A stretch of DNA of 47,677 nucleotides, taken from the IMG/VR virus record IMGVR_UViG_3300046830_000109, positions 1 through 47,677 of that record; one strand, written 5' to 3'. The translations under genes were made by a program, and so were the position numbers. Positions 15,336-45,949 of the stretch are shown piece after piece. The first letter of the stretch is position 1, and every line of letters begins with the position of its first letter. The DNA is from a virus. The notes below the pieces were generated by a model that saw nothing but the letters and a program-made list of their open reading frames with translations, did no database searches and had not been told where the DNA came from.

Positions 15336-16505
15336 TCATTGAAGGTCACGAATTGAACCTTGTCCTCCAAAGAAAGTTGTCCATACTTCACCCATTGTTC
15401 GGTAAAGTCCCTCTTGACCGAGGCGGTTAATGGCGAATGGGTCTCCAGTTTCAATTCCAGACTCAAAGTATTGAGTTGGTTTTGCAGTACTGTAGTACAA
15501 GTAATCAGTGTCTAGCATGTAAACTCTGCTGATACCATCAGGTTCGACATCCTTAGAAGGAATAATTGGTACACCATTGTAGGTAGCAACGATAAATCCT
15601 GCTTCCATACCCGGTACACCTTTTACACCGTTGTAAGTTGGTACAACACGCTTCTCTTCCATGAATCTTTGTTGACTTTGTAGTAGTTGTTGAAGTCTCA
15701 TCAAAGTATCATATCCAGTTAGCATAACCTTTGGATTTCCACCTCTCTGCCAAATCTTTCTGAATAGTTCATCAAAGTGGTCGAGAGATAGAGTTCTGTT
15801 GGTAGGAGTACCAGAAACACCGTTAACCGACATCTCAGCGTTAGCCCATGATGCGTTAGCCTCACGGTCTATTGAATAGATATCTAAGTCAGTTGCTGCG
15901 CTGAGGTGACCTGTTCCGTCTGCGATTGCACTTGTGCTGGTAGTTAGAGAGCCAGCGTGACCAGCGGTGACACGGTCAAGTGACTCGATATCATTACCTG
16001 CTGGGTTGTCGGCATCTCTAAGTAGCATTTTGTTAATCATCTCTGCGTGGTGCTTACCCATTTCTTCTTTCAAAACTGAGCGAATGTCACCTAGACCGTC
16101 ATCCTTGTCGTTAAGGAAGATTGCTACTTCAGACATGTCGAATGAGTGAGCAACGGTTTTTGGCTTTGCTGCAACATTTTGGAAAGTTGGCTTTTGAGTT
16201 TCAGGTAGAGTACCGTTCTCTGCAATTCCACCGCCAACGGTAGCAGAAGGCTTAGCGGTTACTACACGCCATCCACTTCTGTCCCATGGCTTCTTAGGTA
16301 GGATAGAGAAAGCGTTGAACTCTTGGTTCAACTGACTCCATACTTTTCTACCGTAGATTGCTTGGTATGTTCCTGCTGTTGTGCTCAATAGAGGAGCATC
16401 TGCTTTCAATAGTTCTGAACCAGAGTAGGAATATCCCATGCTTTGTCCAGCACCGTAGTAGTAGCGCTCCATATCATTTACTGTTCTCATATAATTTCTT
16501 GCCAT
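15336..16505 (-). CDS. Major capsid protein (HK97 fold)
   Basis: 389 residues, strongest ribosome site in the block (AAGGAGG before ATG 16505), as expected for the most abundant protein. After a short N-terminal segment ending in SELLKADAPLLSTT come TYQAIYGRKVWSQLNQEFNA, ILPKKPWDRSGWRVVT and a glycine-rich loop (ATVGGGIAENGTLP), then a region resembling the HK97 spine and A-domain: LTGYDTLMRLQQLLQSQQRF and VPIIPSKDVEPDG with YMLDTDYLYY. It lies immediately after the protease-scaffold gene. The LLKAD at residues 33-37 recurs in several head proteins and may be a processing site (inference). Confidence 0.85.
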   Translation of the reverse strand: MARNYMRTVNDMERYYYGAGQSMGYSYSGSELLKADAPLLSTTAGTYQAIYGRKVWSQLNQEFNAFSILPKKPWDRSGWRVVTAKPSATVGGGIAENGTLPETQKPTFQNVAAKPKTVAHSFDMSEVAIFLNDKDDGLGDIRSVLKEEMGKHHAEMINKMLLRDADNPAGNDIESLDRVTAGHAGSLTTSTSAIADGTGHLSAATDLDIYSIDREANASWANAEMSVNGVSGTPTNRTLSLDHFDELFRKIWQRGGNPKVMLTGYDTLMRLQQLLQSQQRFMEEKRVVPTYNGVKGVPGMEAGFIVATYNGVPIIPSKDVEPDGISRVYMLDTDYLYYSTAKPTQYFESGIETGDPFAINRLGQEGLYRTMGEVWTTFFGGQGSIRDLQ

Positions 16506-16517
16506 TCATATTCCTCC

Positions 16518-17927
16518 TTAGTTGTTAAATACACTCCCTGCGAGTCGGTGGACTTCGTCCCAACTCATGCTTCCAAGTACCTCAGTAGATGGGATTTCTA
16601 CATTAGCCATATCACTGCTCTTACGAATCGTTGATTCTGGAGCAGCGCTTGAAATGTTGTCAATTCTGTTACTCAAGTCAGATAGGGCCTTTTCGATGTT
16701 AGCAAGTGGTGTTCTTGCGTCAAAGGAAGCGGCTTCTCTTGCTTGTGCTTCTGAAGTGAGTTCTTTGTTTAGTCTGTCAGCAAATACGCCGCTTAGGCTG
16801 TGCTTGAATTGTTCTTCAAGAGCCGCTGCTTTGTAAACTTCGTAGGCCGCTTCTACATCAGTAGGAGAAACTACACTTGGGTGTAAATAGCCTTTTGCTA
16901 CTTTTCCGCCGCCACCGGAATTAATTTTACCGATTGCGCCAGTTGATGGGTTTCCGCCTTCTTGGGCACGACCCTTAACTTGTCCAGCGAAGTAGTCAGC
17001 ACCGTCACCAATTGCTTCTGGTGTGCTACCTAGGTTGGCTTTAGAGACATTATCAAAATGATGTCTTGCGCCACCGATGTCAACACCTTGTGATTTCAAA
17101 GTATTTTCCATCCAGTTCAGGTATTCACTAGAAATGACATCGGAATATTCTCCTTTTGCCATGTCTTCTTTGTGCTCAGCACCGTACATCTTTTCTTCTT
17201 CGTCTTTATCGGCCATTTCTTTCGCCTCGTCTTTTTCGTCTTTATCGTCTTTCTTGTCTTCCAAGTGTTCTTTAAGACCTGCTGGCATCTCGCCCTTCTC
17301 CATTGCGTCAAGGCGGCCATTCAATCTGTCTAGTACACTTGACAATTCAGTCATTGCATCTGTTTCTGTCATATCAGTATCCTCCTTCAATATACGGAAT
17401 GTCGCCTCCGGGTTTATACCTTTCTCACAAATAGTAACCTCATGTAGTTCCAGTTTGGAAATTTCAGTGTAATCGCCATGACTGGCATCACTCTTTCGCA
17501 TTCTCTTGAATGCTTGTCCTCCAATACTGAAACCTCTAAGGGCTCCTTTGCGAATTTCTTTGGCAACTTCTCTTGCCTTTTCTATGTCGTCTCGTAGTTT
17601 AATGACTACGAACATACCAGCATCATCGACACCGGATTTCCAAACTCTACCATCAGAGTCAGTATATTGTGGAATAACGCTTCCAACCTGTATGTTAGAG
17701 TGAGCAAGTTGTACATTTCGGTAACCGTCTGCTTTCATAAAGTCACCAAAAGCATTTTTCAAAGCGCCTCTAGTAATCAAATCTCCTTGCTTGTCTACCA
17801 TCTCAACAGATGCGTATCCAGCGATTACCAAGTCATTATCAGCCTTGATTAAATTGATGCTACCATTGTGAGTAACCGGGGAGGTTCTCAGCATCGAACT
17901 GGCTGTCATCGTTTCTATAGACGACAC
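16518..17927 (-). CDS. Prohead protease fused to scaffold domain
   Basis: 469 residues if GTG 17927 is used; no ATG with a good ribosome site exists, and ATG 17909 is the alternative start. Residues about 25-185 are a herpes/HK97-type (S78/U9-like) serine protease: VIAGYASVEMVDKQGDLITR, His76 in QLAHSNIQVGS, Ser134 in RGFSIGGQAFKR and KLELHEVTICEKGINPEATF. From about 190 on the chain is acidic and helical (KDEKDEAKEMADKDEEEK), then a second helical region, as in a scaffolding core. It therefore likely shapes the prohead and is then removed by self-cleavage. The C terminus GSMSWDEVHRLAGSVF resembles the end of the 123-residue protein at 23931-24302. Confidence 0.8.
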   Translation of the reverse strand: MSSIETMTASSMLRTSPVTHNGSINLIKADNDLVIAGYASVEMVDKQGDLITRGALKNAFGDFMKADGYRNVQLAHSNIQVGSVIPQYTDSDGRVWKSGVDDAGMFVVIKLRDDIEKAREVAKEIRKGALRGFSIGGQAFKRMRKSDASHGDYTEISKLELHEVTICEKGINPEATFRILKEDTDMTETDAMTELSSVLDRLNGRLDAMEKGEMPAGLKEHLEDKKDDKDEKDEAKEMADKDEEEKMYGAEHKEDMAKGEYSDVISSEYLNWMENTLKSQGVDIGGARHHFDNVSKANLGSTPEAIGDGADYFAGQVKGRAQEGGNPSTGAIGKINSGGGGKVAKGYLHPSVVSPTDVEAAYEVYKAAALEEQFKHSLSGVFADRLNKELTSEAQAREAASFDARTPLANIEKALSDLSNRIDNISSAAPESTIRKSSDMANVEIPSTEVLGSMSWDEVHRLAGSVFNN

Positions 17928-23930: not shown

Positions 23931-24302
23931 TTAATCCATTCCTAATTCATTTCCAATTGCACCTTCTGACTTTGCTTGGTCAGCCAGTGCGTGTATATCT
24001 GCCCAATCCATGCTGTGGAAGTCAGCGTTGGTTTTGGGTATGCTCAAAGGCTCTCCGTTGTCTCCTTTTAGAAGTACATCGTCAGCATCTCCTCTAAAGG
24101 TGTCAGGCATGACATCCTCTGGCATACGATTTCTAGCAGATACAAATCCAGCCTTTCTCAAAAGACTTGCAGGATTAGTAAGTGCTTTCTTCAATTCTGC
24201 GTTTTCTGCTTTTAACATCTGCAAACCTGCATCCATGCTTTCCATCTTAGTGATGAGAGCACCCATGAGTTTCTCAGCAACATTCTCCCCCTCGTCGCTC
24301 AT
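23931..24302 (-). CDS. Small coiled-coil head-cluster protein sharing a C-terminal motif with the protease
   Basis: 123 residues, ATG 24302 with TGAGGTGA upstream. N-terminal coiled coil (KMESMDAGLQMLKAENAELK), then a linker and the C-terminal motif FHSMDWADIHALADQA. The latter matches the C terminus of the prohead protease-scaffold (GSMSWDEVHRLAGSV), so both may bind the same partner, for instance the capsid protein or portal. Likely a scaffold or core component (inference). Confidence 0.5.
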   Translation of the reverse strand: MSDEGENVAEKLMGALITKMESMDAGLQMLKAENAELKKALTNPASLLRKAGFVSARNRMPEDVMPDTFRGDADDVLLKGDNGEPLSIPKTNADFHSMDWADIHALADQAKSEGAIGNELGMD

Positions 24303-24311
24303 TTACTCACC

Positions 24312-24656
24312 TCAAAGTGTACGGTTTGATAGTCTACGGTTGATATTTCCAAAGCGAGAAGTTCTGATTGTTCCCGGCAAAACACTTGCTTCTGCCTTGT
24401 GAACAGTCTCGACTTCTGACATTTTCATAATAGGTACTCCACCAGCGTAGATGTCATTGACTCCTTGAATAGAATCGTCTTGCTTCATTACAGCAGACTC
24501 AACATCACTGCTTAGGTAATCTGCATATTTCACAATTTCATTGATGTGATTTCTTGCGGAAAAGCCATCATTCTCGTCTAATGCTTTGTAAAATGCGTCT
24601 ACATGAGTACGCATTTTTCTAGCCATTGGGTCCAATTTTCTCAGGTCCATGCTCAT
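24312..24656 (-). CDS. Small helical head-cluster protein
   Basis: 114 residues from ATG 24656, which lies after AAGGTAGTGG; GTG 24662 is the longer alternative. Helical first half (MARKMRTHVDAFYKALDEND, NHINEIVKYADYLSSD), then a short linker and a basic C terminus (TSRFGNINRRLSNRTL). It directly follows the portal gene. No known domain; probably a portal-associated or internal head protein. Confidence 0.45.
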   Translation of the reverse strand: MSMDLRKLDPMARKMRTHVDAFYKALDENDGFSARNHINEIVKYADYLSSDVESAVMKQDDSIQGVNDIYAGGVPIMKMSEVETVHKAEASVLPGTIRTSRFGNINRRLSNRTL

Positions 24657-24685
24657 CTCCACTACCTTCCTTGACTTTAAACTTC

Positions 24686-26455: not shown

Positions 26456-27762
26456 CACAATCCCTCCGCCCAACTTATGACCGTATCTCTGTCTACTCCC
26501 CACTCTCGGAGAGACTCCTCACCTTTTGATGTTCCGTCTCTGTTGGAGAACTGAACAAATCGCTTTAATTCAGTTTTTCTTACAGGGTCTTTTTCACCTA
26601 TGAAAGCCATGACAGCCTTTGCCTGCCTTTCTTTCATCTGCAAATGTGGAGTAATTTTGTTCAGTAATTTAGTCAAATCATCTTTGGAGTAGAAACTAAC
26701 ACGGTGCTGGCTCCGTTGACCGTCGTTGTACACTTTTTGGTCAACCTGTAACACACCAGCGCCTATGTTCTTGTACAATTGTTCACAATGTAATTTACCT
26801 CTGTCACCAGTGGCAATAAAACCAGCCCTTGGCTCACCTCTTTCTGTAATGGTAATGTAGCCGTCAGCGTCGAGAAAACCTGCTGCATAAGCCCAAGGGT
26901 CCTTGATTATGAGACCTTCTTTAGACAAACACATGTATTCGCCTTTTCGATGAGCCTTGACGATGTTTATCTCTTCACCATACATGTTGAGTAGTTTGGA
27001 TAGTCTGTTAGAATTAAGTCGAGGTACGCCTTTTTCGATAAGGTTCTCAGTGATTGCTCTGGCTGACATAGAGCCGTGATTTGTGATTTCTTCCTTTGCT
27101 AATCTCATCCATTTCTGTTGTTCTTTGGAAAGGTTGTCGATTTGATGTAATGCATTCTTCCACATCTTACGAGCATCTTGTTTCATTTCCATAGCGTTGA
27201 CCCAAGCAAACTTTTCTTCCTCGCCCCAAACATCTTCAAACTCATCTAACTTAGCCAAAGCATCTTCTGCCGCCGCCCAAGAGTTACAGGCTCTTACTAA
27301 ACTACTCTTACGAGTTTCGCCAAACAACCTTAGTGACTTCAAATCTTTTTCACTCACACCCAACTTTCTGATATCTTCTTCGTATTCAGAGCCCCAGCCA
27401 AGTTGTTTGATGGTCGCATCTACCTCCATGCTCTTGATTTTACGAACATTATCTATGATATCATCTATCTCTTCACGGTGTTCTTTGAATACTCTTCGGG
27501 CTTTTCTGAGTTCTTTGACAATCTCAGATGCGCTTTTACCAAGTCTGTCCTCAAACCAACCTTCACCAGTAATACAAAATGGTGCATATACAGTTTCAGG
27601 TACATTTTCTGTAGTAAACACTACGGTCTGTGATGCAATTGACTTAGCAATGCTGTCATCGACATGAGGATGAGTAGTAAGACTTGATGCAATGATGTTC
27701 AAAGTTTCGTGACCCATGTCAACAGATTTAGTAAAGTTTCCAATTCCCAGACTCGGCCACAT
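26455..27762 (-). CDS. LAGLIDADG-domain fusion protein
   Basis: 435 residues from ATG 27762 (GTGGAGATAATT upstream; GTG 27774 is possible). Residues 1-240 are helical and charged with no recognised domain. Residues about 285-400 hold one LAGLIDADG motif (YAAGFLDADGYITI) and following strand-helix elements (GFIATGDRGKLHCEQLYKNI, HRVSFYSKDDLTKLLNKITP), as in single-motif homing endonucleases that act as dimers. There are no intein splicing residues at the domain borders, and portal and terminase on either side are uninterrupted. It may be a domesticated DNA-binding module used in packaging, or a free-standing homing nuclease fused to a structural protein. Confidence 0.6.
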   Translation of the reverse strand: MWPSLGIGNFTKSVDMGHETLNIIASSLTTHPHVDDSIAKSIASQTVVFTTENVPETVYAPFCITGEGWFEDRLGKSASEIVKELRKARRVFKEHREEIDDIIDNVRKIKSMEVDATIKQLGWGSEYEEDIRKLGVSEKDLKSLRLFGETRKSSLVRACNSWAAAEDALAKLDEFEDVWGEEEKFAWVNAMEMKQDARKMWKNALHQIDNLSKEQQKWMRLAKEEITNHGSMSARAITENLIEKGVPRLNSNRLSKLLNMYGEEINIVKAHRKGEYMCLSKEGLIIKDPWAYAAGFLDADGYITITERGEPRAGFIATGDRGKLHCEQLYKNIGAGVLQVDQKVYNDGQRSQHRVSFYSKDDLTKLLNKITPHLQMKERQAKAVMAFIGEKDPVRKTELKRFVQFSNRDGTSKGEESLREWGVDRDTVISWAEGL

Positions 27763-27798
27763 AATTATCTCCACTTTTTGGTATAATATAATTCTTTA

Positions 27799-32430: not shown

Positions 32431-34247
32431 CAGCCCACTCTCCCACTACCTCTGGCTGCAAACATAGTGGAAGGCGCTCCCCAGTTCTTAGGGTCGTTCT
32501 CCATATCTTCGGTAGCCCCTTCTGGTCGAGTTGTGCTATCTTGTCCTTCTCTATGTCCTACTTCTCTGTTCTTACCGTGACCGCCTTGACTGGCAGCCTT
32601 GAGTCTACGCTCTTGTCTTTCAGCAGCATCTTTGAGTTGACGAAGCAACCTTCTAATCTGAGCGAACTGCATGTAATCTTTTTTCTTCTTAATTTCTTCA
32701 AGTTCTGATTTGATGAGTTGTAGTTCTGATTTAGCCAAAGCCTGCCCTTTAAGTCGAGGCGCTCTAGGTTCTCTGATTGGTAGTCCTGCACTTGCAGCCA
32801 TACTTGGTGACTTTGGATTGTAAGCGCTCTCTGCACCCATAGCGTGTCCAGCAGGCATGACAGGAACATTACCCATCAACTTACGGCGCTGCATTGTACC
32901 CATCTGTTGGTCGTAACCTCTTGGGAAAAGCCTGAGTGGTTGCTTGGTTTCAATACCTAAGTGACTTCTGTGTACTGCCAAAGGTGATTTATCAAGCCCA
33001 CGCTTTTTTGCAGGTTTCAAAAATCGAGAATGTAATTTACTTCGACGACTAGTGGCAGTGCTTATATCCGCACCACCGGGTTGAATTTCATACTGAGGTT
33101 GCTTCCAAGATTGGTCTTTAGAACCACCCATATCATCCAACCTGCTCTTCATCAAAGTAGACCAAGCATCTTCTATTGGCGAGGCTTTTCCAAACGAACT
33201 ATATTGGGGTAAACTTGGAAGTCCCATCATTTGAAGCATAGCAATTCTGTTTCTTTCAGCATTAGCAACATCTAATTGTTCGGGCGATAATGTGTCTTCT
33301 CCAAAACCAAACATCGCTCCCGGTTCAGCCGCCCTTTGCGCTAAATGTTCTCGGACACTTTGATTCAGGCCGCCCGGCTCTCTAGTGGGGTCAAGAACTT
33401 CGTTGGTCAATTCTTCCATTGTAACGCCCGGTGTTTCTATACCTGCCATAATTTGAGCCATCAACGCTTTTTTATTAGGATGGTCATCAGGCATATTTTC
33501 TTTGATGTTTCCAAATAGTCCAAGAAGCGGTGCAAGTGAAGGGTCTTCTGCATGAGCAAGTGCTTCGTGAGCGTCAATAGTCGCTATCCTTCGTGCGAGT
33601 TCATCAACATCTTCTGTTTTAAAATAAGCATCTTTGGGTGCCGCACGACCCGGATTGCGGGATGCTAGATTAATAGTAGGGTCGGCCTGTGGTTCAAATG
33701 CTCCAAAAGTTAATCCTATCGCTTTGTCGTAATCAGGTTGTTCGGGGTAGCCCAAAGTTAGTCTTGATTGCTGTCCTGTAAAATCTGGTGAGCGAGTTCG
33801 TTGGAGGTCAAATGGATTGTATTCTTCTTGCTTCATTAAACTAGACCAAGCATGTGCCATCGGCTCACCTGTAGCAAGCATACCACCCGGTGCTGGCATA
33901 GTACCAGTCGCTGCACCAAGGCTAAGATTACCCATGTCGGGCATCCCTGTCATAGCACCAAACTGTTGACCTTCATTGAATTGGTCGTCCATCATCGGTT
34001 CTTCTTCTTCCTCTTCCGGCATCATCGGAGGCATTTCTGGTTCAGGCTTTGGGATTGATATCTTGAGATGAGGTAAGTCATCGGTCTTTTCTTCTGCTTC
34101 TTTTTGAGATTGTTTCTGGTCTCGAAGTTTATCCATTTCCTTCGGGTCACCAACACCATACTTGTAATCATCATCATCTTTGGTGTAACCAAGATTAGAT
34201 TCGCTTCGAGGACTGTACATCCTAGTGTCTGAACCTGTCATTGGCAT
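32430..34247 (-). CDS. Core/scaffold-like protein with two internal AWxxLMK motifs
   Basis: 605 residues from ATG 34247 (GAGGTGA upstream; GTG 34256 possible). The N terminus is acidic and Pro/Met-rich (PEPEMPPMMPEEEEEE). Two copies of the tag-like motif occur internally, EPMAHAWSSLMKQEE (near residue 130) and SPIEDAWSTLMKSRL (near 358), each preceded by a flexible stretch. The C-terminal region is basic and helical (KSELQLIKSELEEIKKKKDY, AQIRRLLRQLKDAAERQERR). The motifs match those of the cargo proteins at 38.9-45.1 kb, so this may be a polyprotein-like internal core protein that is cut at or near the motifs (inference). Confidence 0.45.
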   Translation of the reverse strand: MPMTGSDTRMYSPRSESNLGYTKDDDDYKYGVGDPKEMDKLRDQKQSQKEAEEKTDDLPHLKISIPKPEPEMPPMMPEEEEEEPMMDDQFNEGQQFGAMTGMPDMGNLSLGAATGTMPAPGGMLATGEPMAHAWSSLMKQEEYNPFDLQRTRSPDFTGQQSRLTLGYPEQPDYDKAIGLTFGAFEPQADPTINLASRNPGRAAPKDAYFKTEDVDELARRIATIDAHEALAHAEDPSLAPLLGLFGNIKENMPDDHPNKKALMAQIMAGIETPGVTMEELTNEVLDPTREPGGLNQSVREHLAQRAAEPGAMFGFGEDTLSPEQLDVANAERNRIAMLQMMGLPSLPQYSSFGKASPIEDAWSTLMKSRLDDMGGSKDQSWKQPQYEIQPGGADISTATSRRSKLHSRFLKPAKKRGLDKSPLAVHRSHLGIETKQPLRLFPRGYDQQMGTMQRRKLMGNVPVMPAGHAMGAESAYNPKSPSMAASAGLPIREPRAPRLKGQALAKSELQLIKSELEEIKKKKDYMQFAQIRRLLRQLKDAAERQERRLKAASQGGHGKNREVGHREGQDSTTRPEGATEDMENDPKNWGAPSTMFAARGSGRVG

Positions 34248-34257
34248 ACTTTTCACC

Positions 34258-37209: not shown

Positions 37210-37929
37210 CTAACTAAGTAAATCTAACATCGTATTTTCTACATTCCAACCTATTTTTGTTGCCATCATACCACGCTTTGTAGGTACTCCGGCCTTTTGA
37301 AGTCTAACTAAATCCTCTCTAAAGGGGTCGAATATCCTATGTTCACCCAATCTTTGCTGCTGCCAAAGGACATTTGCTTGGTCATCCCACCATTGGTCAG
37401 CCTTATTTGCGACCAACATTATCAATTTAGGTGCGTATTTTTTACCTTTGAACCAAGCCTTAAATTTACGATAGCGATATTGTCTGTGCAATATTGCATC
37501 TACAAGATATTTGAATCCACCAACAGCCTGCACAGCCTCGTCACCACCCTTGCTACTGCGATGGTCAAATAAAAATACCACTGCTTCCACCTGTCGATTA
37601 ACCATATCATCTACCCACAAGTTCCAAAAACGCTCTTCACCGCCAATATCAGAAGAATAAACTACTCTTGTATCACCTTTGTAGGTGACACGCTTCCTAC
37701 TTGGTCTAGGTAATAAGAAGCGATTGATACCGGGTACTTTGAAATGCTTAGTTCTGTCTGCTAAAGGTATCTCTTCCATCTCTCCCGGCGTAGTCATATA
37801 CCTATCCAGTGTAGTTTTACCTACCGTAGTAGGTCCATACACGCCGACCTTCCTTGGTTTCCAGTAATGCCACAACTCTTTAGCAAATACTACACCACCA
37901 ACAAGAGCAGAACCACCTAGTGCCGACAT
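37210..37929 (-). CDS. Membrane-anchored Ras/Arf-like small GTPase
   Basis: 239 residues, ATG 37929 with GAGGTATTATT. All GTPase boxes are visible: P loop GPTTVGKTT at 32-40, switch II DIGGEERFWNLW at 94-105, AVVFLFD strand at 116-122, NKAD at 175-178 and a G5-like ATKIGWNV at 223-230 placed as in SAK-type boxes. About 40 residues (45-85) are inserted around switch I. A hydrophobic N-terminal segment (GGSALVGGVVFAKELWHYW) would anchor it in the membrane. Ras/Arf/SRbeta-type GTPases act as membrane switches in cells. A virus-encoded copy inside a head gene array is unusual; the role here is unknown. Confidence 0.75.
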   Translation of the reverse strand: MSALGGSALVGGVVFAKELWHYWKPRKVGVYGPTTVGKTTLDRYMTTPGEMEEIPLADRTKHFKVPGINRFLLPRPSRKRVTYKGDTRVVYSSDIGGEERFWNLWVDDMVNRQVEAVVFLFDHRSSKGGDEAVQAVGGFKYLVDAILHRQYRYRKFKAWFKGKKYAPKLIMLVANKADQWWDDQANVLWQQQRLGEHRIFDPFREDLVRLQKAGVPTKRGMMATKIGWNVENTMLDLLS

Positions 37930-38909: not shown

Positions 38910-39953
38910 TCACTCTTTCTTCTTCTCAGAGTCGAGTTTTTCCTTTTTACCGTCTTTTGACGGGCCGGGACCTGCTTTTGAGCCGATAACGATGACCATC
39001 CCATGGGCAGGTTTCTTTTTATCATCGGCTTTTTTCTTATCATCACCATCACATTCAGGACAGCCTTTACAGTCTTTTGGGCAGTCTGCTTTTAGTTCTG
39101 TACCACAATGCGCTTTGTGAAGCACATAAGCCGCTTCGCTCAACAATTCTTCTCCAATATTCTTTCTAAACATATTATCACCTTTTTGTACCCCAAGTCC
39201 ACCGAATTCTTTTTGCCCTTCAAAGGCACTTCCCGCTTGAGGTTTGTATATCTCCCTCAAAGCATATGGGTCTGCATTTCCGCTGACTTGAGTTCCTTGT
39301 GTCGGGGCAGCACCTGCTGTTCCCATTTGTGATTGTGCGCCGAAACCTGTAGTCGGCGCTTGTGGTAATTTACTACCTGCATAAGCAGCCCCAAGTGCAC
39401 CCAATGCATTTAGTGCTCCAGACTGCTCGGCTTGTCCAACTGCCTGTGCAATCCTACCGCCAGTCGCAGTGGTTGTTTGAATCGCCCTTGCAGGTACATC
39501 CCTTGCTCCTGCTTGGAAATCCTTTAAACGATTTGCTGCTCTTTGCCTAATACCTTTAGGCTGTGCCACCTTTGTGGCTCTAATTGATTTTGCTCCTGTA
39601 GTCAAAGGCTTTGTAGCGACTTTACCCATTATACCAAATGGATTAGCCGCTTGACCAAGACCCGTCACAGCCCCTGTCGCTCTTGCACCGAAGGAAGTCC
39701 CTAGGTCTTTCTCGGCAACAAGCCCACCAGTAAACGGGTCTTGTGCAACAGCCTCTCTCTTGATACCGGGGTCAAATCTACCACTTTCGTCGAAATACTG
39801 ACCACCTGCTCCTACATATGCACCGTGTAACCCAAAAAGGATGGGAATTGCGAGTGGAGCAATCTTCTCAACCTTATCGTTAGAGTGTAACATATCCCAT
39901 GCAGAATCAATCGCATAGGTACTCGACATGTATCTCGCCACCGCATCTGTCAT
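38910..39953 (-). CDS. Tagged cargo protein with Ala/Gly-rich body and Cys-rich end
   Basis: 347 residues from ATG 39953; ATG 39929 (MSSTYAIDSAWDMLHSN, GGTG upstream) would place the tag-like motif at the very N terminus, as in the neighbours. The middle is Ala/Gly-rich with membrane-like stretches (IAPLAIPILFGLHGAYVGAG; GALNALGALGAAYAGSKLPQ). The C-terminal part has LSEAAYVLHKAHCG, LKADCPKDCKGCPECDGDDK and a Lys-rich tail, so one zinc site is likely. A second, weaker motif-like segment (EAAYVLHKA) precedes the cysteines. Function unknown; candidate packaged protein. Confidence 0.5.
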   Translation of the reverse strand: MTDAVARYMSSTYAIDSAWDMLHSNDKVEKIAPLAIPILFGLHGAYVGAGGQYFDESGRFDPGIKREAVAQDPFTGGLVAEKDLGTSFGARATGAVTGLGQAANPFGIMGKVATKPLTTGAKSIRATKVAQPKGIRQRAANRLKDFQAGARDVPARAIQTTTATGGRIAQAVGQAEQSGALNALGALGAAYAGSKLPQAPTTGFGAQSQMGTAGAAPTQGTQVSGNADPYALREIYKPQAGSAFEGQKEFGGLGVQKGDNMFRKNIGEELLSEAAYVLHKAHCGTELKADCPKDCKGCPECDGDDKKKADDKKKPAHGMVIVIGSKAGPGPSKDGKKEKLDSEKKKE

Positions 39954-40140
39954 GATAAGCCTGTCGCAGGAAGTGATAATTGTCAGCGGCCTCCATCAAA
40001 AGCGATAATGCCTCCGGGGTCGCTGATTTGTTGAGGTTTTCTTCCATCTTAACGACATTATCAATAGCGACTAAAGTCATGTGATAAAGTAGCGTGTCCC
40101 AAAAGTCTTCCACGGTCAATGCTACAGGCAGACGGCTCAT
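39907..40140 (-). CDS. Small helical hypothetical protein
   Basis: 77 residues, ATG 40140 with AAGGAT upstream; its 3' end overlaps the next gene by 47 nt. Helical and acidic (VEDFWDTLLYHMTLVAIDNV, ATPEALSLLMEAADNYHFLR), ending with RCGGEIHVEYLCD. EDFWDTLLYHM is only loosely like the AWxxLLK motif and is not counted as a copy. No family recognised. Confidence 0.45.
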   Translation of the reverse strand: MSRLPVALTVEDFWDTLLYHMTLVAIDNVVKMEENLNKSATPEALSLLMEAADNYHFLRQAYHDRCGGEIHVEYLCD

Positions 40141-40144
40141 TTAC

Positions 40145-41188
40145 TTATCCTTTAAGTGTTCCCCTTTCCTTAAAGTGCCTAGCCCTATTAGCATGAGGGC
40201 TTTCTGCAACCAAAGTATGGTCCTTTGTATGACTCATATCAGGCCCTCCATGACCGTAAATACCCCTTCTTCTACGCTCACGATTCAATTCTTCACGATA
40301 CTTAACACGCTCAGGAGTAGATTCGTACTTCTTATCATACTCTAACTTGTGACGCTTAGCCTCTGGACTTACTGCATCTTTCAACAAACGCCAAGCGATG
40401 TCCATTGGTTCGCTTGCGTATTTCATTTGGTCTTTTTCATCAAAACCATCTATCTTAGAATAAAGTTTGGCAGCAGTTTCTCCTATTCTTCTAGCCTTAG
40501 ACCACAGATGTTCGGGATGCTCATGTTCATCCTCAAGAAAACTAAGTTCTTCTTGTGAACGCATGTGACTAGGTTTTTGTCTAATCATTTCACCAAACGC
40601 TTTGATAGCATGTTTTGCCTGTTCATATTCGTGGTCGAGCAATTGCTCATGCCCTTCGGTGAATAAATGTTGATACACACCACCATCCCAACCTTCTTCT
40701 TTCAAATAATCACTTGGTAAGTCTAATGCCGCCTGTGCGACTTCTTTTTGTCGTTCATTCATATCTTCAAATAAAGGCATAAAGTCAGTATCAAATTTAT
40801 ATCTAAGAAATTCATTATCAGGGCTGATTCCGTCATCATCATTAAAATAATCTCTTATATCTTCTTTCAACAAACGCCAAGCGATGTCCATTGGTGATTT
40901 AACAATTGTCGGCTTACCACCAACACCTTGTTTCTTGGCTCGCTTACGCTTAGTCGCTGCTCGCTTCTGCCCACTAGTCATCTCACCACTAGTCTTTGGA
41001 GTCTTACTCGATACTCTTACACTTGGTCTGCACTTTGGATAGCCTTTACTACCTTTCTTGGCTTTCGACCTGCCACAAGGAGGATGTTTACCATCTTTGC
41101 CTCGACGACTAACATCAACCCACTTTTCTTTAAACCACCTGTTTAAGTTCTTAACAATAAGAACATCGTGACAGGTGCACTCTGGCAT
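40145..41188 (-). CDS. DUF5872-like basic protein with two internal tag motifs
   Basis: 347 residues from ATG 41188 (GGGGG upstream; TTG 41191 in the longer frame). N-terminal 85 residues: FKEKWVDVSRRGKDGKHPPC, GRSKAKKGSKGYPKCRPSVR and GQKRAATKRKRAKKQG, a small basic Cys-containing family shared by marine phages and giant viruses. Then SPMDIAWRLLKED near residue 99 and EPMDIAWRLLKDA near 261: two copies of the tag, encoded by an exact 33-bp DNA repeat 486 bp apart. The segment between is acidic and helical, the last 80 residues basic (ELNRERRRRGIYGHGG). It looks like three modules joined by tags. Confidence 0.55.
   Translation of the reverse strand: MPECTCHDVLIVKNLNRWFKEKWVDVSRRGKDGKHPPCGRSKAKKGSKGYPKCRPSVRVSSKTPKTSGEMTSGQKRAATKRKRAKKQGVGGKPTIVKSPMDIAWRLLKEDIRDYFNDDDGISPDNEFLRYKFDTDFMPLFEDMNERQKEVAQAALDLPSDYLKEEGWDGGVYQHLFTEGHEQLLDHEYEQAKHAIKAFGEMIRQKPSHMRSQEELSFLEDEHEHPEHLWSKARRIGETAAKLYSKIDGFDEKDQMKYASEPMDIAWRLLKDAVSPEAKRHKLEYDKKYESTPERVKYREELNRERRRRGIYGHGGPDMSHTKDHTLVAESPHANRARHFKERGTLKG
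40377..40409 (-). repeat. 33-bp direct repeat encoding the tag, copy A
   Basis: Identical over 33 bases to 40863-40895. It encodes PMDIAWRLLK in the second tag copy of the 40145-41188 gene. Exact identity at synonymous sites points to recent duplication or gene conversion. Confidence 0.85.
40863..40895 (-). repeat. 33-bp direct repeat encoding the tag, copy B
   Basis: Partner of 40377-40409, exactly 486 bases (162 codons) away in the same frame. It encodes the first tag copy of the 40145-41188 gene. Confidence 0.85.
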
Positions 41189-41718
41189 CAATTAAACCCC
41201 CTTATTCTTCTCAATTCACGAGCGACTTCTTCGTCAGTGACAGGTTTGTTAGTTTTGCGACGGTATGAATAAGGTACTCTTGATTGAGCGCTTCTTATTG
41301 TAGTAAAAAGACTCTGTAATTCTTCGTCGCTCATTGGTGTATTAAAGTCCCTTGGCTCGTTACTAACAACGGGCGGTGCGTTAAGTTGTGCTTCAAGTGC
41401 TGCGGCTTGTTCTCTAAACCTACGAGCATCGCCGGGATTGCGAGAAAAGTCTGCTTGTGTATTGAGGTCAAGTACTTGTAAATCTGGCTGTGTTTCATAA
41501 ATTTTAGTTCCGCCAAGAGAGGGGAAGCCGCCAAAAAAGGGACCGGGTTTTGCGCCACTAGGTCCGTAACCTAGTGTATTACCACGAGGTGTGTAAGTTT
41601 CTTTCATTTGTTCCATATTTTGAAAGTGTCGCATCTCCTCTTCTGGAGTGTTTTCGTAATCTGACATACTAGGTTGAAGAGCCTTAAGTACAGACCAAGC
41701 AGATTCAAACGGATTCAT
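41188..41718 (-). CDS. Tagged cargo protein, unknown function
   Basis: 176 residues, ATG 41718 with AGGTGAGTGA. The tag is N-terminal (MNPFESAWSVLKALQPS). The rest is a flexible Gly/Pro-rich part (SGAKPGPFFGGFPSLGG) and helical segments (DARRFREQAAALEAQLN; SDEELQSLFTTIRSAQ), ending in a basic stretch (VARELRRIRGF). No domain recognised. Overlaps the next gene by TGATG. Confidence 0.55.
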   Translation of the reverse strand: MNPFESAWSVLKALQPSMSDYENTPEEEMRHFQNMEQMKETYTPRGNTLGYGPSGAKPGPFFGGFPSLGGTKIYETQPDLQVLDLNTQADFSRNPGDARRFREQAAALEAQLNAPPVVSNEPRDFNTPMSDEELQSLFTTIRSAQSRVPYSYRRKTNKPVTDEEVARELRRIRGFN

Positions 41719-41928
41719 TCACTCACCTGCCCACGCATCACATACATGGTCTGCACGACAAGTAAAGTCATACCACTCACAATAACCAGTCATAGGGTCG
41801 TCAGTTTTTGATGAGTCCCACGCTTTACAGTTACCACACTTTTTGTCGCCAGTCGCCTTTCTATAGTTAGGAGCATCCTCTTTACCCTTGAGTAAAGCCC
41901 AAGCCCTCTCCATAGATGCGTGATTCAT
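41719..41928 (-). CDS. Tagged small Cys-rich protein
   Basis: 69 residues, ATG 41928 with GGGGAAG upstream. N-terminal tag (ASMERAWALLKGKEDAP) is joined to a five-cysteine module: KKCGNCKAWD, TGYCEWYDFTCRADHVCDAW. The C-x2-C ... GYC ... VCDxW arrangement is a known small phage metal-binding pattern, reminiscent of HiPIP-type modules. It is a simple two-part protein, tag plus metal site, which supports the tag being portable. Confidence 0.65.
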   Translation of the reverse strand: MNHASMERAWALLKGKEDAPNYRKATGDKKCGNCKAWDSSKTDDPMTGYCEWYDFTCRADHVCDAWAGE

Positions 41929-42116
41929 TTTTTCTTCCCCTTTTTACCTTTGAACTTACCTTTACAGTATTGCACAGCCCAACCGTTTGCATAGGCTGAC
42001 GGATAAACTTTGAATTTACGCTTGGCTGCTGCTTTACCTTCGGGGCATAGTTTCTTTTCTAAAAAGTCCATAGCAGCCATGCTGCCCAAACAATGCCCGC
42101 AGTTACAATCAGTCAT
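41925..42116 (-). CDS. Small basic protein of a phage/NCLDV-type family
   Basis: 63 residues, ATG 42116; overlaps the next gene by 4 nt. Cys-rich start (MTDCNCGHCLGSMAAMDFLE), then CPEGKAAAKRKFKVYPSAYA and a Lys/Gly-rich end (CKGKFKGKKGKKK). The CPxGKAAAKRKFxVYPSAYAN pattern recurs in marine phages and large eukaryotic viruses in proteins of unknown function. MAAMDFLEKKL may be a degenerate tag. Probably binds nucleic acid (basic), but this is inferred. Confidence 0.6.
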   Translation of the reverse strand: MTDCNCGHCLGSMAAMDFLEKKLCPEGKAAAKRKFKVYPSAYANGWAVQYCKGKFKGKKGKKK

Positions 42117-42168
42117 CCGTTAAAACCCCTTAAGAACAGACTAAGCGAAGTCAAATGCGGTCAAAGTA

Positions 42169-42462
42169 TCACAGACCAGTAAATGGGTCATCTGTGTCTT
42201 CAGAGATTTTACCCTGTTCCTTGTTTCTCTCCATCTGTTGCCTTACCAAGTAACTCATAATATCTTCATCATCTTTTTGACGAAGTTGAGCCTGTTCTTC
42301 AGGAGTGGGGGGATTCTTCAGTTGAAACCGTGGTACAGTTTCTCTAACCTTTTCAGCCGCATCTCTGAGTCCCCTTTGATGCCTCGATTCTCGGTCAAAT
42401 CTTTCTTTCATATCCGCAAAACGGCTTTTCAATATTCTCCATGCTTCATTAAATGCTGTCAT
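42169..42462 (-). CDS. Tagged charged helical protein
   Basis: 97 residues from ATG 42462, chosen because AGGTGG lies about 8 nt upstream and because MTAFNEAWRILKSRF then matches the tag of the 43749-45026 protein from its first residue (GTG 42474 would add four residues). The rest is highly charged helix (MKERFDRESRHQRGLRDAAE) and an acidic end (GKISEDTDDPFTGL). No domain recognised. TAATG overlap with the upstream gene. Confidence 0.6.
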   Translation of the reverse strand: MTAFNEAWRILKSRFADMKERFDRESRHQRGLRDAAEKVRETVPRFQLKNPPTPEEQAQLRQKDDEDIMSYLVRQQMERNKEQGKISEDTDDPFTGL

Positions 42463-42794
42463 TAACAATTCCACCTTTTTAGCGCCGCACCTTTCGGTGT
42501 CATTTTACCACCCTTACTGGTCGGACCTTTAACTCCACTCATACGAGCGCAGAAAGACTTACGACGCTTTGCTGCTTTACCACCCGGTTTTAGTTTACTG
42601 GGCTTTTTTGTGACTGGTCTTTTCAGATTTGCACCTGTTTTACGCTTGGCCGCAGCACGACCTTTTGCGCTCAAGCCTCCGGTCCGAGAGTGCTTGTTTT
42701 TATTATAGCCATGAAAAGGCTTAGACTTAGCCTTGAGAAACTCAAAACTAACCTCGGCAGGAGTGCAACAGTCACAAAAATTGAACTCCACCAT
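42462..42794 (-). CDS. DUF6321-like basic protein with variant tag
   Basis: 110 residues. N terminus CDCCTPAEVSFEFLKAKSKP carries a variant of the tag (SFEFLKAK in place of AWSLLKA). The remainder matches a family found in phages and giant viruses: RTGGLSAKGRAAAKRKTGAN, AAKRRKSFCARMSGVKGPTS and ALKRWNC. Extremely basic, likely binds DNA or RNA (inference). No ribosome site before ATG 42794; a TATA-like box at about -28 suggests a leaderless transcript. Confidence 0.65.
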   Translation of the reverse strand: MVEFNFCDCCTPAEVSFEFLKAKSKPFHGYNKNKHSRTGGLSAKGRAAAKRKTGANLKRPVTKKPSKLKPGGKAAKRRKSFCARMSGVKGPTSKGGKMTPKGAALKRWNC

Positions 42795-42812
42795 GTGCAG
42801 GCTAAGTGGTTT

Positions 42813-42823
42813 TAGAATAAAAG
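42813..42823 (-). promoter_or_regulatory. TATA-like box, leaderless type
   Basis: On the minus strand CTTTTATTCTA lies 19-29 nt before ATG 42794, the usual distance of an archaeal TATA box from the transcription start. The start codon has no ribosome site, so transcription may begin at or next to the ATG. Confidence 0.45.
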
Positions 42824-42830
42824 ATATTCG

Positions 42831-43271
42831 TTATATGGGCACGAGTCTATCTCTAGGTATGCCACCTGCTCTAACATGGGTCAACATGTCATCTCCACCA
42901 AATCCAGATTCAACTTGAGTAGCAGGCTCATCTAAATCAGCGGCTCTGACCCCTACGATACCAGTACTTTCTTTAGGAATACCTAACTGCTGGGCTCTAC
43001 GCTGTAAGAATTGCTCTACTGCTTCTCTATTTGGACTAGTATAAGTGACTTTTTCAGGAATATTTTGCCTCATCTCTACAGGATAATGTTTCTTACTACG
43101 CTTTTTTGCAGGCGGGTCTATACCTGTTCGCATAACTCCGGGCATGTCCATAGTACCATGATATTCAGTTACAGGTCCATAAGAAGAGGGGAAGTCAGGG
43201 TGAAACTCACCGAGTTCTGTTTGGCGTTTCAGCAAAATCCACCAATCATCCTTGATATGGCTATCGCTCAT
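42831..43271 (-). CDS. Tagged ADP-ribosyltransferase-fold protein
   Basis: 146 residues, ATG 43271. Residues 5-15 are a variant tag (HIKDDWWILLKRQ). The rest follows the ART/Tpt1-like order: YHGT at 37-40 (first NAD-binding motif, His), a Gly-Ile-Asp-Pro-Pro turn, VTYTSPNREAVEQFLQRRA at 75-93 (second motif and helix), IVGVRAADLDEP strand at 105-116, and HVRAGGIPRDRLVPI at the end, typical of the closing strand of such domains. The third catalytic Glu/Gln was not pinned down. T4 packages the ART Alt in its head and injects it; a similar role is inferred. Alternative: inactive ART-fold structural protein. Confidence 0.55.
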   Translation of the reverse strand: MSDSHIKDDWWILLKRQTELGEFHPDFPSSYGPVTEYHGTMDMPGVMRTGIDPPAKKRSKKHYPVEMRQNIPEKVTYTSPNREAVEQFLQRRAQQLGIPKESTGIVGVRAADLDEPATQVESGFGGDDMLTHVRAGGIPRDRLVPI

Positions 43272-43290
43272 GCATACGCTACGCTAATCT

Positions 43291-43300
43291 AAATAAAAAA
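43291..43300 (-). promoter_or_regulatory. TATA-like / T-rich element before ART gene
   Basis: TTTTTTATTT on the minus strand at 20-29 nt before ATG 43271. Spacing and absence of a ribosome site fit a leaderless archaeal promoter. The same T tract follows the inverted repeat 43303-43376, so it could serve as a terminator for the upstream gene. Confidence 0.4.
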
Positions 43301-43302
43301 GG

Positions 43303-43376
43303 TGGCGGCTACCAGAAAAGAAACACACACAAGAGGTAGGAATGAGATTGTTACTAAAAGAAAACAGTAGCCGCCA
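43303..43376. repeat. Inverted repeat with 10-bp stem
   Basis: TGGCGGCTAC at 43303-43312 is the exact reverse complement of GTAGCCGCCA at 43367-43376; flanking AGGT/ACCT can extend the stem past a small bulge. The 54-nt loop is AC- and A-rich and holds no gene. Read on the minus strand the second arm is followed by six T. Candidates: terminator of the upstream small genes, or a structured small RNA. Confidence 0.5.
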
Positions 43377-43406
43377 AACCTGCGTTGAAAAACTGATATA
43401 AATAAC

Positions 43407-43553
43407 TTACTTCATTGTTTTGTCACATTTTATACAAAACCAAGCAAATCCTTTGAAAGCATTATCTTTTTTGATATACAGTCGCTTAGTCGGATGGTGG
43501 TTGCAATATTTGCACTTCGGACTAGGTCGCTTGCCCTTAGTCTGTTTTATCAT
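43407..43553 (-). CDS. Small zinc-ribbon protein (48 aa)
   Basis: 49 codons from ATG 43553 to TAA 43407, GGAG about 10 nt upstream. Basic start (MIKQTKGKRPSPK), then two Cys pairs: KCKYCNHHPTKRLY and WFCIKCDKTMK, a compact single-zinc fold. Overlaps the preceding membrane-protein gene by 17 nt. Reading frame, cysteine spacing and ribosome site argue for a real gene of unknown function. Confidence 0.6.
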   Translation of the reverse strand: MIKQTKGKRPSPKCKYCNHHPTKRLYIKKDNAFKGFAWFCIKCDKTMK

Positions 43554-43707
43554 TTTTCAAACTCTCCATAGCATTATATCTCAGAACTCTGACCATCGAT
43601 GATAAGTCATTGATTTCAGATTGCGCTGTTTCTAACCGCTTAGCCAAAGTGTAAGTCGCTAAGCATAATCCGAGTAAGCACAAACCTACTACGAGGTCCC
43701 AGAACAT
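43537..43707 (-). CDS. Small membrane-anchored coiled-coil protein (56 aa)
   Basis: 57 codons from ATG 43707 to TAA 43537. One N-terminal transmembrane segment (FWDLVVGLCLLGLCLATYTL) and a coiled-coil tail (AKRLETAQSEINDLSSMVRV). Size and topology resemble small phage lysis or envelope-associated proteins, but no function can be assigned. No clear ribosome site or TATA box; lies 41 bases after the tagged 425-residue gene. Confidence 0.5.
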   Translation of the reverse strand: MFWDLVVGLCLLGLCLATYTLAKRLETAQSEINDLSSMVRVLRYNAMESLKNDKTD

Positions 43708-43748
43708 GGTTATGGGTTAGTGATACCATACTTGAACTTTGGTGTCAC

Positions 43749-45026
43749 TTAAAGCCTAACTCTATTCTTATTTGCTTGTCTGTCAGCGATTGCTCTTTCT
43801 GTTGTTGCTCTTAATCTGTCAGCAACTGCTCTCTTTTCATCAGCAGTCACTGGCGCTGCGTCTAGTTTGTCGTAGTATTCTTGTAAGATTTGTGGGTCTA
43901 CGCCTAAAACAGGGTTACCCATTTCGTCTACTTCACCTGTCGGTACCATAGCCTGTCGACCCATTTCTTCAATGTCCACAGGTGTAACACCTGTCATCGA
44001 CATCGCACCGCTGGGAGTAAACATAAGATTACCTTCTTTGTCAACATTCTGTGCTAAGAATTGACCAGTACTTGGTCTATAGACTGGTCTGTCACCTTGG
44101 TATTCGTCAGCGCCCTGCCTACTTGCTTTTGGATTAAATGTCGGAGGCTCAGGATTTTCTGTAATCTCTTGCATAATTCTTGAAGCCATCTCAGGGCCAT
44201 ACATATCAGTGAACAAGTCCTCTTGGTTTTCCAACTGTTCCATGCGAGCGTCGTAAGCGACACTACCCGGCTTGAGTGTTTCTTTGAATTTCTTTGGCTG
44301 GGCAATCATACTGACCTTTTCTGGCGGAGTATAATCTGCTCCCATTTGAGCAGCGACATCTGCTAATACATCACTGGTCTTTTCAGCCTGAGTTTTGAAC
44401 TCACGCTTGTCTGGATTTCTATCGAGTGCTGCGTAACTTCTTCGTTTGAAACCTTTGCCACTTCTTGGCATGGTCACGATACCTTCTACATTTCCTCGCT
44501 TGACTCTTATCTTATTACGCACACCAAGTTCGCCAGTTTCTGGGTCAATCACATTTTGCTTCTGACTCGGTGTCCTACTTGAAGTATCTAGTCTAAGACC
44601 TCGTTGACCTGTGCCACCAAGCATCCTTTTTGCAGCATCCTCAAGACTATTACCCCCACCTGCTGCTCTTCTCTCACCCGGACTTTGGAAGCCTTCTGCT
44701 AATCGTGTTGTACCCAGTGCCCTAGGCTTACCCGTATCTGGGTCAGCAACAGTTGTATCAGCAAGCATGGCCTGCGCTTGACGCTGTGCTATCAGTTCAT
44801 CTGACAATCCTTCCTCCCGCATTCTTGCTGCTTCGGCTTGCTGTTGTTCTCTTGTGAGTTGCGGCACATCACTTGGAAGCACTCTTTCTACGCCCTTTCT
44901 GCCGCCTGCCGTAAAAAATACATTAGGGTTAACCGTCATACCACCAGAGTAGTCTTCACCCATTCCCATGAGTTGTTCTTCTGGTCGGGCTTTCAAAAGG
45001 CTCCATGCTTGCTCGAATGCTGTCAT
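43749..45026 (-). CDS. Tagged cargo protein, large and mostly flexible
   Basis: 425 residues, ATG 45026; AGGTGA ending the preceding micro-ORF is its ribosome site. The tag is N-terminal (MTAFEQAWSLLKARPEE), the best match to consensus. The body is charged, Gly/Pro/Gln-rich and probably flexible (VPQLTREQQQAEAARMREEG, GVRNKIRVKRGNVEGIVTMP), with a helical C terminus (KRAVADRLRATTERAIADRQ). No domain recognised. Candidate internal virion protein. Confidence 0.55.
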   Translation of the reverse strand: MTAFEQAWSLLKARPEEQLMGMGEDYSGGMTVNPNVFFTAGGRKGVERVLPSDVPQLTREQQQAEAARMREEGLSDELIAQRQAQAMLADTTVADPDTGKPRALGTTRLAEGFQSPGERRAAGGGNSLEDAAKRMLGGTGQRGLRLDTSSRTPSQKQNVIDPETGELGVRNKIRVKRGNVEGIVTMPRSGKGFKRRSYAALDRNPDKREFKTQAEKTSDVLADVAAQMGADYTPPEKVSMIAQPKKFKETLKPGSVAYDARMEQLENQEDLFTDMYGPEMASRIMQEITENPEPPTFNPKASRQGADEYQGDRPVYRPSTGQFLAQNVDKEGNLMFTPSGAMSMTGVTPVDIEEMGRQAMVPTGEVDEMGNPVLGVDPQILQEYYDKLDAAPVTADEKRAVADRLRATTERAIADRQANKNRVRL

Positions 45027-45032
45027 TGTTGT

Positions 45033-45104
45033 TCACCTGTGTGCATCATGTTTGGCCGGGTTCGCCTTCAAGAATGTCCAAGCCTCGTCAAAAGCCCCCG
45101 CCAT
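45033..45104 (-). CDS. 23-residue tag-only micropeptide
   Basis: ATG 45104 to TGA 45033. The peptide consists of the tag and little more: MAGAFDEAWTFLKANP, then seven residues. It lies between the HMG-CoA lyase-like gene (17 nt before) and the tagged 425-residue gene (6 nt after), and its last codons form the ribosome site of the latter. A TTTTATCT box sits 21-28 nt before the ATG, giving a possible leaderless transcript. It could be a leader for translational coupling, a remnant of a lost cargo gene, or a true packaged peptide. Confidence 0.55.
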   Translation of the reverse strand: MAGAFDEAWTFLKANPAKHDAHR

Positions 45105-45121: not shown

Positions 45122-45949
45122 CTAAGATAAAAGAACATTGGTAAGCGCACGAGCAATACGAGCAGCATCAGCGAGGTCTCCTTCCTGCAATCCACAATCG
45201 AAACCCCATGCGTTTAGATGGCGCACCAAGGTCTGGGTACTCAAGTTAGCCCCACTACCCTCAGCAAACGGACAACCACCTAGACCGTTGATGCTGCTGT
45301 CAAATTCTTTGATGCCACTAAGTAAGCCACTTCTTACTAAGGACACTGCTCTGGATTCGTCACCTTTGTGATGCAAATGAAGGGCTGGTACAAGGCCTTC
45401 GTCGAGTGCCATCTCAGCCCAAAGCGCAATCTCTTGATGACTCGCTACACCAATGGTGTCAGACAAAACCACAGTATCACCGAACATCTTAGCATCTCGT
45501 AAACAAGAAAGCATAGTCTGTGGCTTAACAATACCACTGTGAGGGCTACCAAAAGCCATACTGATGTAAACTCTAACATTTTCTTTGGGCACCTTGTCCA
45601 TGAAAGTTTTGTACATCAAAACGATTTCTTGCCGTGTCTTACCCATGTTGTTGATATTGAAAGTCTCACAAGGACTAAAAACGATGTTCATCTTTTCAAC
45701 ACCTGCTTTTACTGCCCTATCGTAGCCCCGCTTGTTCATCACAAGCCCAGCACCAAAGCCAGTAAACACCTTTTCTGCATCAGCCATTTGAGGTAAACGC
45801 TTGGGATGAGCGAAACTTACCTCTTCGATGTTCTCTATACCTGCTCTATAGAGTGCATTGATGAGGTTCTTTTTGTCGTCTGTGTCGATGATATGCTCAA
45901 GATATTGTAAACCGTCACGAGGGCCGACCTCATAGACGGTTACTTTCAT
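45122..45949 (-). CDS. HMG-CoA lyase-like enzyme (DRE-TIM metallolyase)
   Basis: 275 residues, ATG 45949 overlapping the upstream stop. Motifs of the HMG-CoA lyase family are intact: EVGPRDGLQ with Arg11 and Asp12, VSFAHPKRLPQMADAE, VYISMAFGSPHSG, LSDTIGV, metal ligands His191 and His193 in LHLHHKG, and the mobile-loop NGLGGCPFAEGSGANLST with Cys226 and Asn235 nine residues apart, as in characterised lyases. The family splits HMG-CoA into acetoacetate and acetyl-CoA. In archaea HMG-CoA feeds mevalonate and membrane isoprenoid synthesis, so a viral copy could redirect host lipid or carbon flow (inference). It lacks the tag. A related 3-hydroxyacyl-CoA or keto-acid substrate is possible. Confidence 0.75.
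   Translation of the reverse strand: MKVTVYEVGPRDGLQYLEHIIDTDDKKNLINALYRAGIENIEEVSFAHPKRLPQMADAEKVFTGFGAGLVMNKRGYDRAVKAGVEKMNIVFSPCETFNINNMGKTRQEIVLMYKTFMDKVPKENVRVYISMAFGSPHSGIVKPQTMLSCLRDAKMFGDTVVLSDTIGVASHQEIALWAEMALDEGLVPALHLHHKGDESRAVSLVRSGLLSGIKEFDSSINGLGGCPFAEGSGANLSTQTLVRHLNAWGFDCGLQEGDLADAARIARALTNVLLS
45125..45133 (-). promoter_or_regulatory. TATA-like box before the micropeptide
   Basis: CTTTTATCT on the minus strand, 21-29 nt before ATG 45104 and partly within the end of the lyase gene. Same spacing and similar sequence as the boxes before 42794 and 43271; no ribosome site precedes the ATG. Confidence 0.45.

Follow-up and report, generated by a model that had tools for sequence, protein, structure and literature searches.

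The window, that is, the whole stretch of 47,677 nucleotides analysed here (IMG/VR record IMGVR_UViG_3300046830_000109), comes from an HK97-type tailed virus with an S78 prohead protease; the major capsid protein (MCP), portal, TerL and Peptidase_S78 were all detected in it. About 9-12 of its proteins carry a short peptide tag (Table 1). A sequence-only reading of the window had listed tag segments between 38910 and 45104, and every one of them was found there, all on the minus strand; no match appeared on the plus strand of the window, where the tag was looked for as well. That interval did not hold the whole set, since the 608-aa gene further down has two more copies (EPMAHAWSSLMK and SPIEDAWSTLMK). 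The 23-codon ORF that carries the outermost copy stops just past its tag and sits immediately upstream of the gene for the tagged 425-aa protein. It is probably a truncated remnant of a tagged gene, because its counterpart in one relative (L101) is longer and intact.

Several other genes of the window deserve mention. An HMG-CoA-lyase-like metabolic gene (45122-45949) keeps its place close to the tagged island in the majority of relatives, and its nearest cellular relatives found were bacterial (≤37%). A protein with a LAGLIDADG-like stretch (AAGFLDADGYITI) is encoded at 26455-27774, between TerL and portal, and is present at about the same place in 13 of 13 relatives; so fixed a position is unusual for a homing endonuclease. 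A conserved small GTPase-like protein (GPTTVGKTT, NKAD; 37210-37929) adjoins the head operon, with a Pfam Arf match at E = 0.24 only. Four neighbouring genes (12069-12869, 12871-13635, 13638-14096 and 14111-14440) each end in IGKR or IGRR; they are possibly duplicated decoration or tail proteins, and three of them are without homologue in the fetched relatives.

Table 1. Tag copies, head proteins and candidate processing sites in the window (a slash after K marks the candidate cleavage point).
Feature	Position	Strand	Remarks
Tag FDEAWTFLK (AGAFDEAWTFLKA, 'AGAF' copy)	45066..45092	-	Inside 23-codon ORF 45033-45104, MAGAFDEAWTFLKANPAKHDAHR then stop
N-terminal tag FEQAWSLLK/A (MTAFEQAWSLLKA)	44991..45017	-	425-aa protein 43749-45026; PSSM 31.9 bits
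Divergent N-terminal tag IKDDWWILLK (HIKDDWWILLKR, degenerate)	43227..43256	-	ART-like protein 42831-43271; aligned with canonical-tag homologues
Putative ADP-ribosyltransferase (ART)-fold payload protein	42831..43271	-	Tag helix ahead of folded domain
Degenerate tag TPAEVSFEFLKA (SFEFLKAK)	42729..42764	-	Gene 42462-42794, ahead of basic domain; PSSM 13.6 bits
N-terminal tag FNEAWRILK/S (MTAFNEAWRILKS)	42427..42453	-	101-aa ORF 42169-42474; PSSM
Decayed tag SMAAMDFLEK	42054..42083	-	Gene 41925-42116, ahead of basic domain; relatives read AWDLLEK there
N-terminal tag MERAWALLK/G (SMERAWALLKG)	41887..41913	-	69-aa ORF 41719-41928; PSSM
N-terminal tag FESAWSVLK/A (MNPFESAWSVLKA)	41683..41709	-	176-aa ORF 41188-41718; PSSM
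Internal tag MDIAWRLLK (PMDIAWRLLK)	40865..40891	-	Behind DUF5872 domain, 348-aa protein 40145-41191
Second internal tag MDIAWRLLK (PMDIAWRLLK)	40379..40405	-	Before KYESTPERVKYREELNRERRRRG domain, 348-aa protein 40145-41191
N-terminal tag IDSAWDMLH (AIDSAWDMLH)	39885..39911	-	Conserved protein 38910-39953; canonical tags in homologues
Tag MAHAWSSLM	33834..33860	-	608-aa disordered-looking protein 32430-34256; PSSM
Second tag IEDAWSTLM	33150..33176	-	608-aa protein 32430-34256; relatives keep tag at aligned position
116-aa head-module protein	24312..24662	-	Conserved AVMK/QD site
123-aa coiled-coil, scaffold-like protein	23931..24302	-	VLLK/GD; C-terminal MDWADIHALA motif
Prohead protease (Peptidase_S78)	16518..17927	-	C-terminal scaffold-like region
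Candidate self-cleavage site INLIK/AD	17838..17858	-	Just ahead of S78 protease domain; 13/14 aligned relatives, offset in G020
Tag-like VEAAYEVYK/A	16827..16856	-	Scaffold half of protease protein; best in untagged core proteins
Candidate site IRK/S	16617..16628	-	Variable linker near protease/scaffold C terminus; 14/14 sequences
C-terminal motif MSWDEVHRLAG	16536..16568	-	Common to protease and 123-aa coiled-coil protein (gene 23931-24302)
Candidate maturation site GSELLK/AD	16398..16421	-	MCP aa 29-36; unchanged in close MCP relatives
HK97-type MCP	15336..16505	-	

Our comparison covered thirteen relatives of 52-116 kb and HVTV-1. The tag is a recurrent, strongly conserved and amphipathic peptide with the 12-residue consensus [ENST]-[PA]-[MFI]-[DE]-x-A-[WF]-x-[LIV]-L-K-[AQGS]; its helical hydrophobic moment was 0.47 against a background of 0.28, a value that 15% of background 10-mers reach. 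At a threshold of ≥15 bits, the PSSM placed 172 tags on 137 proteins of the window and the 13 relatives. The sequence-only reading had suggested a profile search, and when the 12-column PSSM was run against the relatives, 191 matches above 10 bits were obtained compared with 6 in shuffled proteins, a count that is partly circular because its own matches trained the matrix. Two tests were free of this circularity. The expression [FMILV]xxAWxxLK occurred in 3-9 copies per genome in the window and ten relatives (reversed pattern 0; composition-shuffled proteins 0-0.06), and a degenerate DNA pattern matched 29 of 39 records, the same pattern reversed 0 of 39. When IMG/VR was scanned with M-D-x-A-W-x-hydrophobic-L-K, at least 119 stretches matched and the reversed control gave 21; among the matches listed, roughly 70 were judged by eye to be tags and the remainder unrelated domains.

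Among fetched tag contigs longer than 50 kb, window-type TerL was found in 11/14 and the MCP in 10/14, whereas 0/9 control contigs with an unrelated motif had either, and the IMG/VR tag contigs spanning head genes showed one MCP type only. The nearest annotated MCPs were those of haloarchaeal druskaviruses (33-34% identity) and methanogen viruses, all of which infect archaea, as the sequence-only reading had supposed for the window. Of 14 records, 12 encode DNA polymerase B, and its gene runs opposite to the late genes. Published Poseidoniales viruses (magroviruses/Adrikavirales) have genomes of about 90-100 kb, DNA polymerase B and a halovirus-like MCP (PMC10160649, PMC13108676). Size, polymerase and MCP kinship of our set fit these descriptions, Poseidoniales being putative hosts.

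The carriers are alike in hardly anything except the tag. Outside it, mean column identity was 4% (91 representatives), half of the inter-tag segments were singletons or pairs, and recurring domains appeared in different arrangements. Furthermore, homologues of the basic domains of the window (KLCPxGKAAAKRKF, RWFKEKWVDV, which is DUF5872, RKSFCARM and KYREELNRERRRRG) occur without the tag in cyanophages and pelagiphages, among them the phage homologues of the basic domains in genes 42462-42794 and 41925-42116; Prochlorococcus phage P-SCSP2 has three such tag-free homologues between its scaffold and MCP genes. The tag is thus modular and sits on late proteins, otherwise unrelated as had been claimed, rather than being part of one ordinary homologous domain, the outcome named beforehand as fatal to the idea. 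The further statement that it lies mostly at the N terminus did not hold. N-terminal copies numbered 98, internal copies in linkers between domains 63 and extreme C-terminal copies 11, so that 74 of 172 were internal or C-terminal, and both PMDIAWRLLK copies are internal to one 348-aa protein. Two to five tags were counted in 27 proteins. Some of these resemble beads on a string (five tags in L176:4998-7487, four in L128:11813-14695), with ART-like and basic domains among those in between.

Tagged genes were mostly late-strand genes. Of the 137, 134 shared the strand of TerL, compared with 712 of the 1390 ORFs that have no tag (Fisher p = 1.5e-32). In the larger genomes, 76/101 tagged against 104/1022 untagged genes lay no more than 20 genes upstream of the head operon (p = 9e-46). 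Long runs of 67-100 genes had zero tags, and in large early/replication blocks the tag was rare. We counted both the late-strand bias and the clustering by the head operon in favour of a packaging tag.

Among the payloads of the window is an ART-like protein. In its model (pLDDT 79) the tag forms a helix of its own, of lower confidence and outside the high-confidence domain, and the alignment of the family shows a conserved HGT motif. One homologue matched PARP at E = 6e-5, below Pfam's own cut-off; the 26 PDB sequence matches were all weak and all of ART or KptA type, and the Foldseek matches, likewise weak, were mostly of these types, with KptA as the best (E = 0.011). Since Alt of phage T4 is a packaged ADP-ribosyltransferase (PMC9026906, PMC7411985), this payload was also counted for a packaging tag. 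A kinase reading of another payload (GSGMNQxxxG...VVKV) was checked and not confirmed.

The end of the N-terminal tag, LLK/[AQGS], resembles in sequence the conserved sites hydrophobic-x-K/[ASGQ] of the head proteins. Of 69 distinct N-terminal tags with LK, 47 had A, S, G or Q as the next residue, where 33% would be expected after any LK (p = 2.8e-9); no such enrichment was seen after internal or C-terminal tags (18/41, p = 0.14). In core proteins, [LIVMA]xK/[ASGQ] was conserved at 17 places, while the reversed order gave 4 and substituting nine other residues for K gave 2-6. The protease protein accounts for nine of the 17 and the MCP for one; further sites are found in the 116-aa protein and at the N terminus of a 719-aa protein; in the 123-aa coiled-coil protein the K/ type of pattern was seen by eye. 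Not all 17 would be cleavage sites, because several lie inside the conserved catalytic domain, TerL or the GTPase-like protein, where cutting is unlikely. Counterparts of the MCP site read SDILK/AD in G020, LLK/SD in G022 and SK/AD in HVTV-1 and HCTV-1, and the latter two combine K/AD in the MCP with K/S or K/A before the protease domain. K34 of the MCP could not be placed in the structure because the predicted model was poor (pLDDT 33).

We also searched untagged core proteins for a docking partner, and no convincing one emerged. The most tag-like stretch, VEAAYEVYK/A, was dropped, since a column shuffle equalled its score in 16.5% of trials (p = 0.165). The protease and the 123-aa protein have a common C-terminal M-x-W-x-[DE]-[VI]-H motif, but as a tag-like docking element this WDEVHxLA end was rejected, ranking low among tag-like stretches. 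Scaffold proteins sometimes have a common capsid-binding tail, and the presence of the motif in both the protease and the coiled-coil protein recalls the tails common to protease and scaffold.

The best overall explanation, to which we give a probability of about 0.55, is that the motif serves as a modular tag for loading cargo, comparable in kind to T4 capsid targeting. That the motif is a packaging tag in the broad sense is slightly safer ground, and packaging combined with protease removal of the N-terminal tags stands a little below even odds. The tag may fold as a short amphipathic helix that would dock on some part of the head before maturation, be it the scaffold core, the protease/scaffold or the inner capsid face, and the docked proteins would be enclosed in the head and delivered along with the DNA. 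The final L-(x or L)-K/[ASGQ] of N-terminal tags may be a prohead-protease site, in line with the residue preference described above, and the tag could then be cut off when the head matures, as happens in T4. Docking or spacing is probably the main role of internal and C-terminal copies; cleavage of C-terminal tags would bring little, as they are 1-12 residues ahead of the stop. The T4-like loading or processing signal proposed from the sequence alone is therefore backed in part: late genes by the head operon, ART-like and basic payloads and the N-terminal LLK/[AQGS] speak for it, and cleavage at internal or C-terminal copies has no backing from the statistics. Stated in full, and tentatively, with somewhat less than an even chance, a lineage of marine archaeal tailed viruses would load about ten variable proteins into the prohead by a position-independent peptide code, with the protease trimming N-terminal copies at Lys. 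This code, held with the same reserve, could stand N-terminally, C-terminally or as repeated beads between domains, in a sequence separate from the T4 and P1 signals.

The rival that survives best, though an unlikely one, is that the tag docks late proteins on the portal, ejection complex, tail tube or baseplate and thereby serves ordered assembly and ejection with no targeting to the capsid interior. Two conserved tagged proteins near TerL, the 608-aa one (in the window and 12 relatives) and a 347-aa one with a hydrophobic segment, could be ejection proteins, and the few tags in or near the tail module would fit as well. However, the N-terminal tags end like head sites, and the P-SCSP2 homologues of the basic payloads belong to a head module. 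We regard it as more doubtful still that the motif works in the infected cell, where it would attach to a hub of the host or the virus (membrane, polymerase, chaperone or protease adaptor) and recruit effectors. Effector-type payloads besides the ART-like domain do carry the tag, its character is amphipathic, and its position independence is typical of docking peptides, yet the concentration on the late strand by the head operon, the rarity in early/replication blocks and the tagging of two conserved structural-looking late proteins argue against it. An improbable third reading makes the tag first of all a polyprotein processing signal, cut at LLK/ so that separate small proteins are freed, with docking incidental. 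It would account for proteins with 2-5 tags between domains, and for DUF5872 and KYREELNRERRRRG, fused in the window and separate small proteins in cyanophages and pelagiphages; but most tags are N-terminal on single-domain proteins, C-terminal tags would free almost nothing, and internal sites have no small residue after K. Finally, the loose DNA pattern does pick up unrelated domains such as the FMDEAWRVLK (methyltransferase-like) and KWFMDTAWPLLK families. An artefact, be it amphipathic helices arising by chance or a single ordinary homologous domain, is nevertheless hardly credible and was rejected on near-zero reversed and shuffled controls, the 4% identity outside the tag and the tag-free homologues.

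If the cargo-loading reading is true, the tag makes it possible to list from sequence which proteins uncultured marine archaeal viruses bring into their hosts, and many ORFs without an assigned role become testable effector candidates. It also yields the concrete prediction of a Lys-specific prohead-protease site and shows how small proteins common to cyanophages and pelagiphages get refitted with a tag here.

Encapsulins have the HK97 fold, and the cargo-loading peptides of encapsulins and microcompartments are short and lie at termini or in linkers, as the tag does; in the present case, however, a virus head equipped with a protease forms the shell. The druskaviruses HVTV-1 and HCTV-1 resemble the window in their 33-34% identical MCP and in candidate K/A(D) and K/S or K/A sites that align in MCP and protease. 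They differ in the tag: none was found in HVTV-1, although MCP, portal and candidate sites are common to both, and this was counted against the packaging reading; HCTV-1 was compared around the head genes only. Packaging signals are already known in T4 and P1, and a search of the available literature on capsid targeting in archaeal viruses found none described there. In P1, an N-terminal region of DarB (>9, ≤30 residues) is enough to get a foreign protein packaged in the head, and BLAST gave no consensus among the Dar proteins (PMC9024508). A short N-terminal region, here a putative loading signal, is common to both, but in the present set one consensus extends over 137 proteins. In T4, the capsid-targeting sequence (CTS) of IPI-III and Alt is a short N-terminal peptide removed by the prohead protease (PMC9026906, PMC7411985). 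The present tag should not be called a T4 CTS, because it is not restricted to the N terminus (98 N-terminal vs 74 internal or C-terminal copies) and no sequence kinship was shown. It differs further in its AWxxLLK sequence, a probable P1 Lys instead of Glu, up to five copies per protein and an archaeal-type virus. It agrees with the CTS in being a short conserved peptide on unrelated late proteins, in its probable removal at a motif that also occurs in head proteins, and in a putative ART-type payload.
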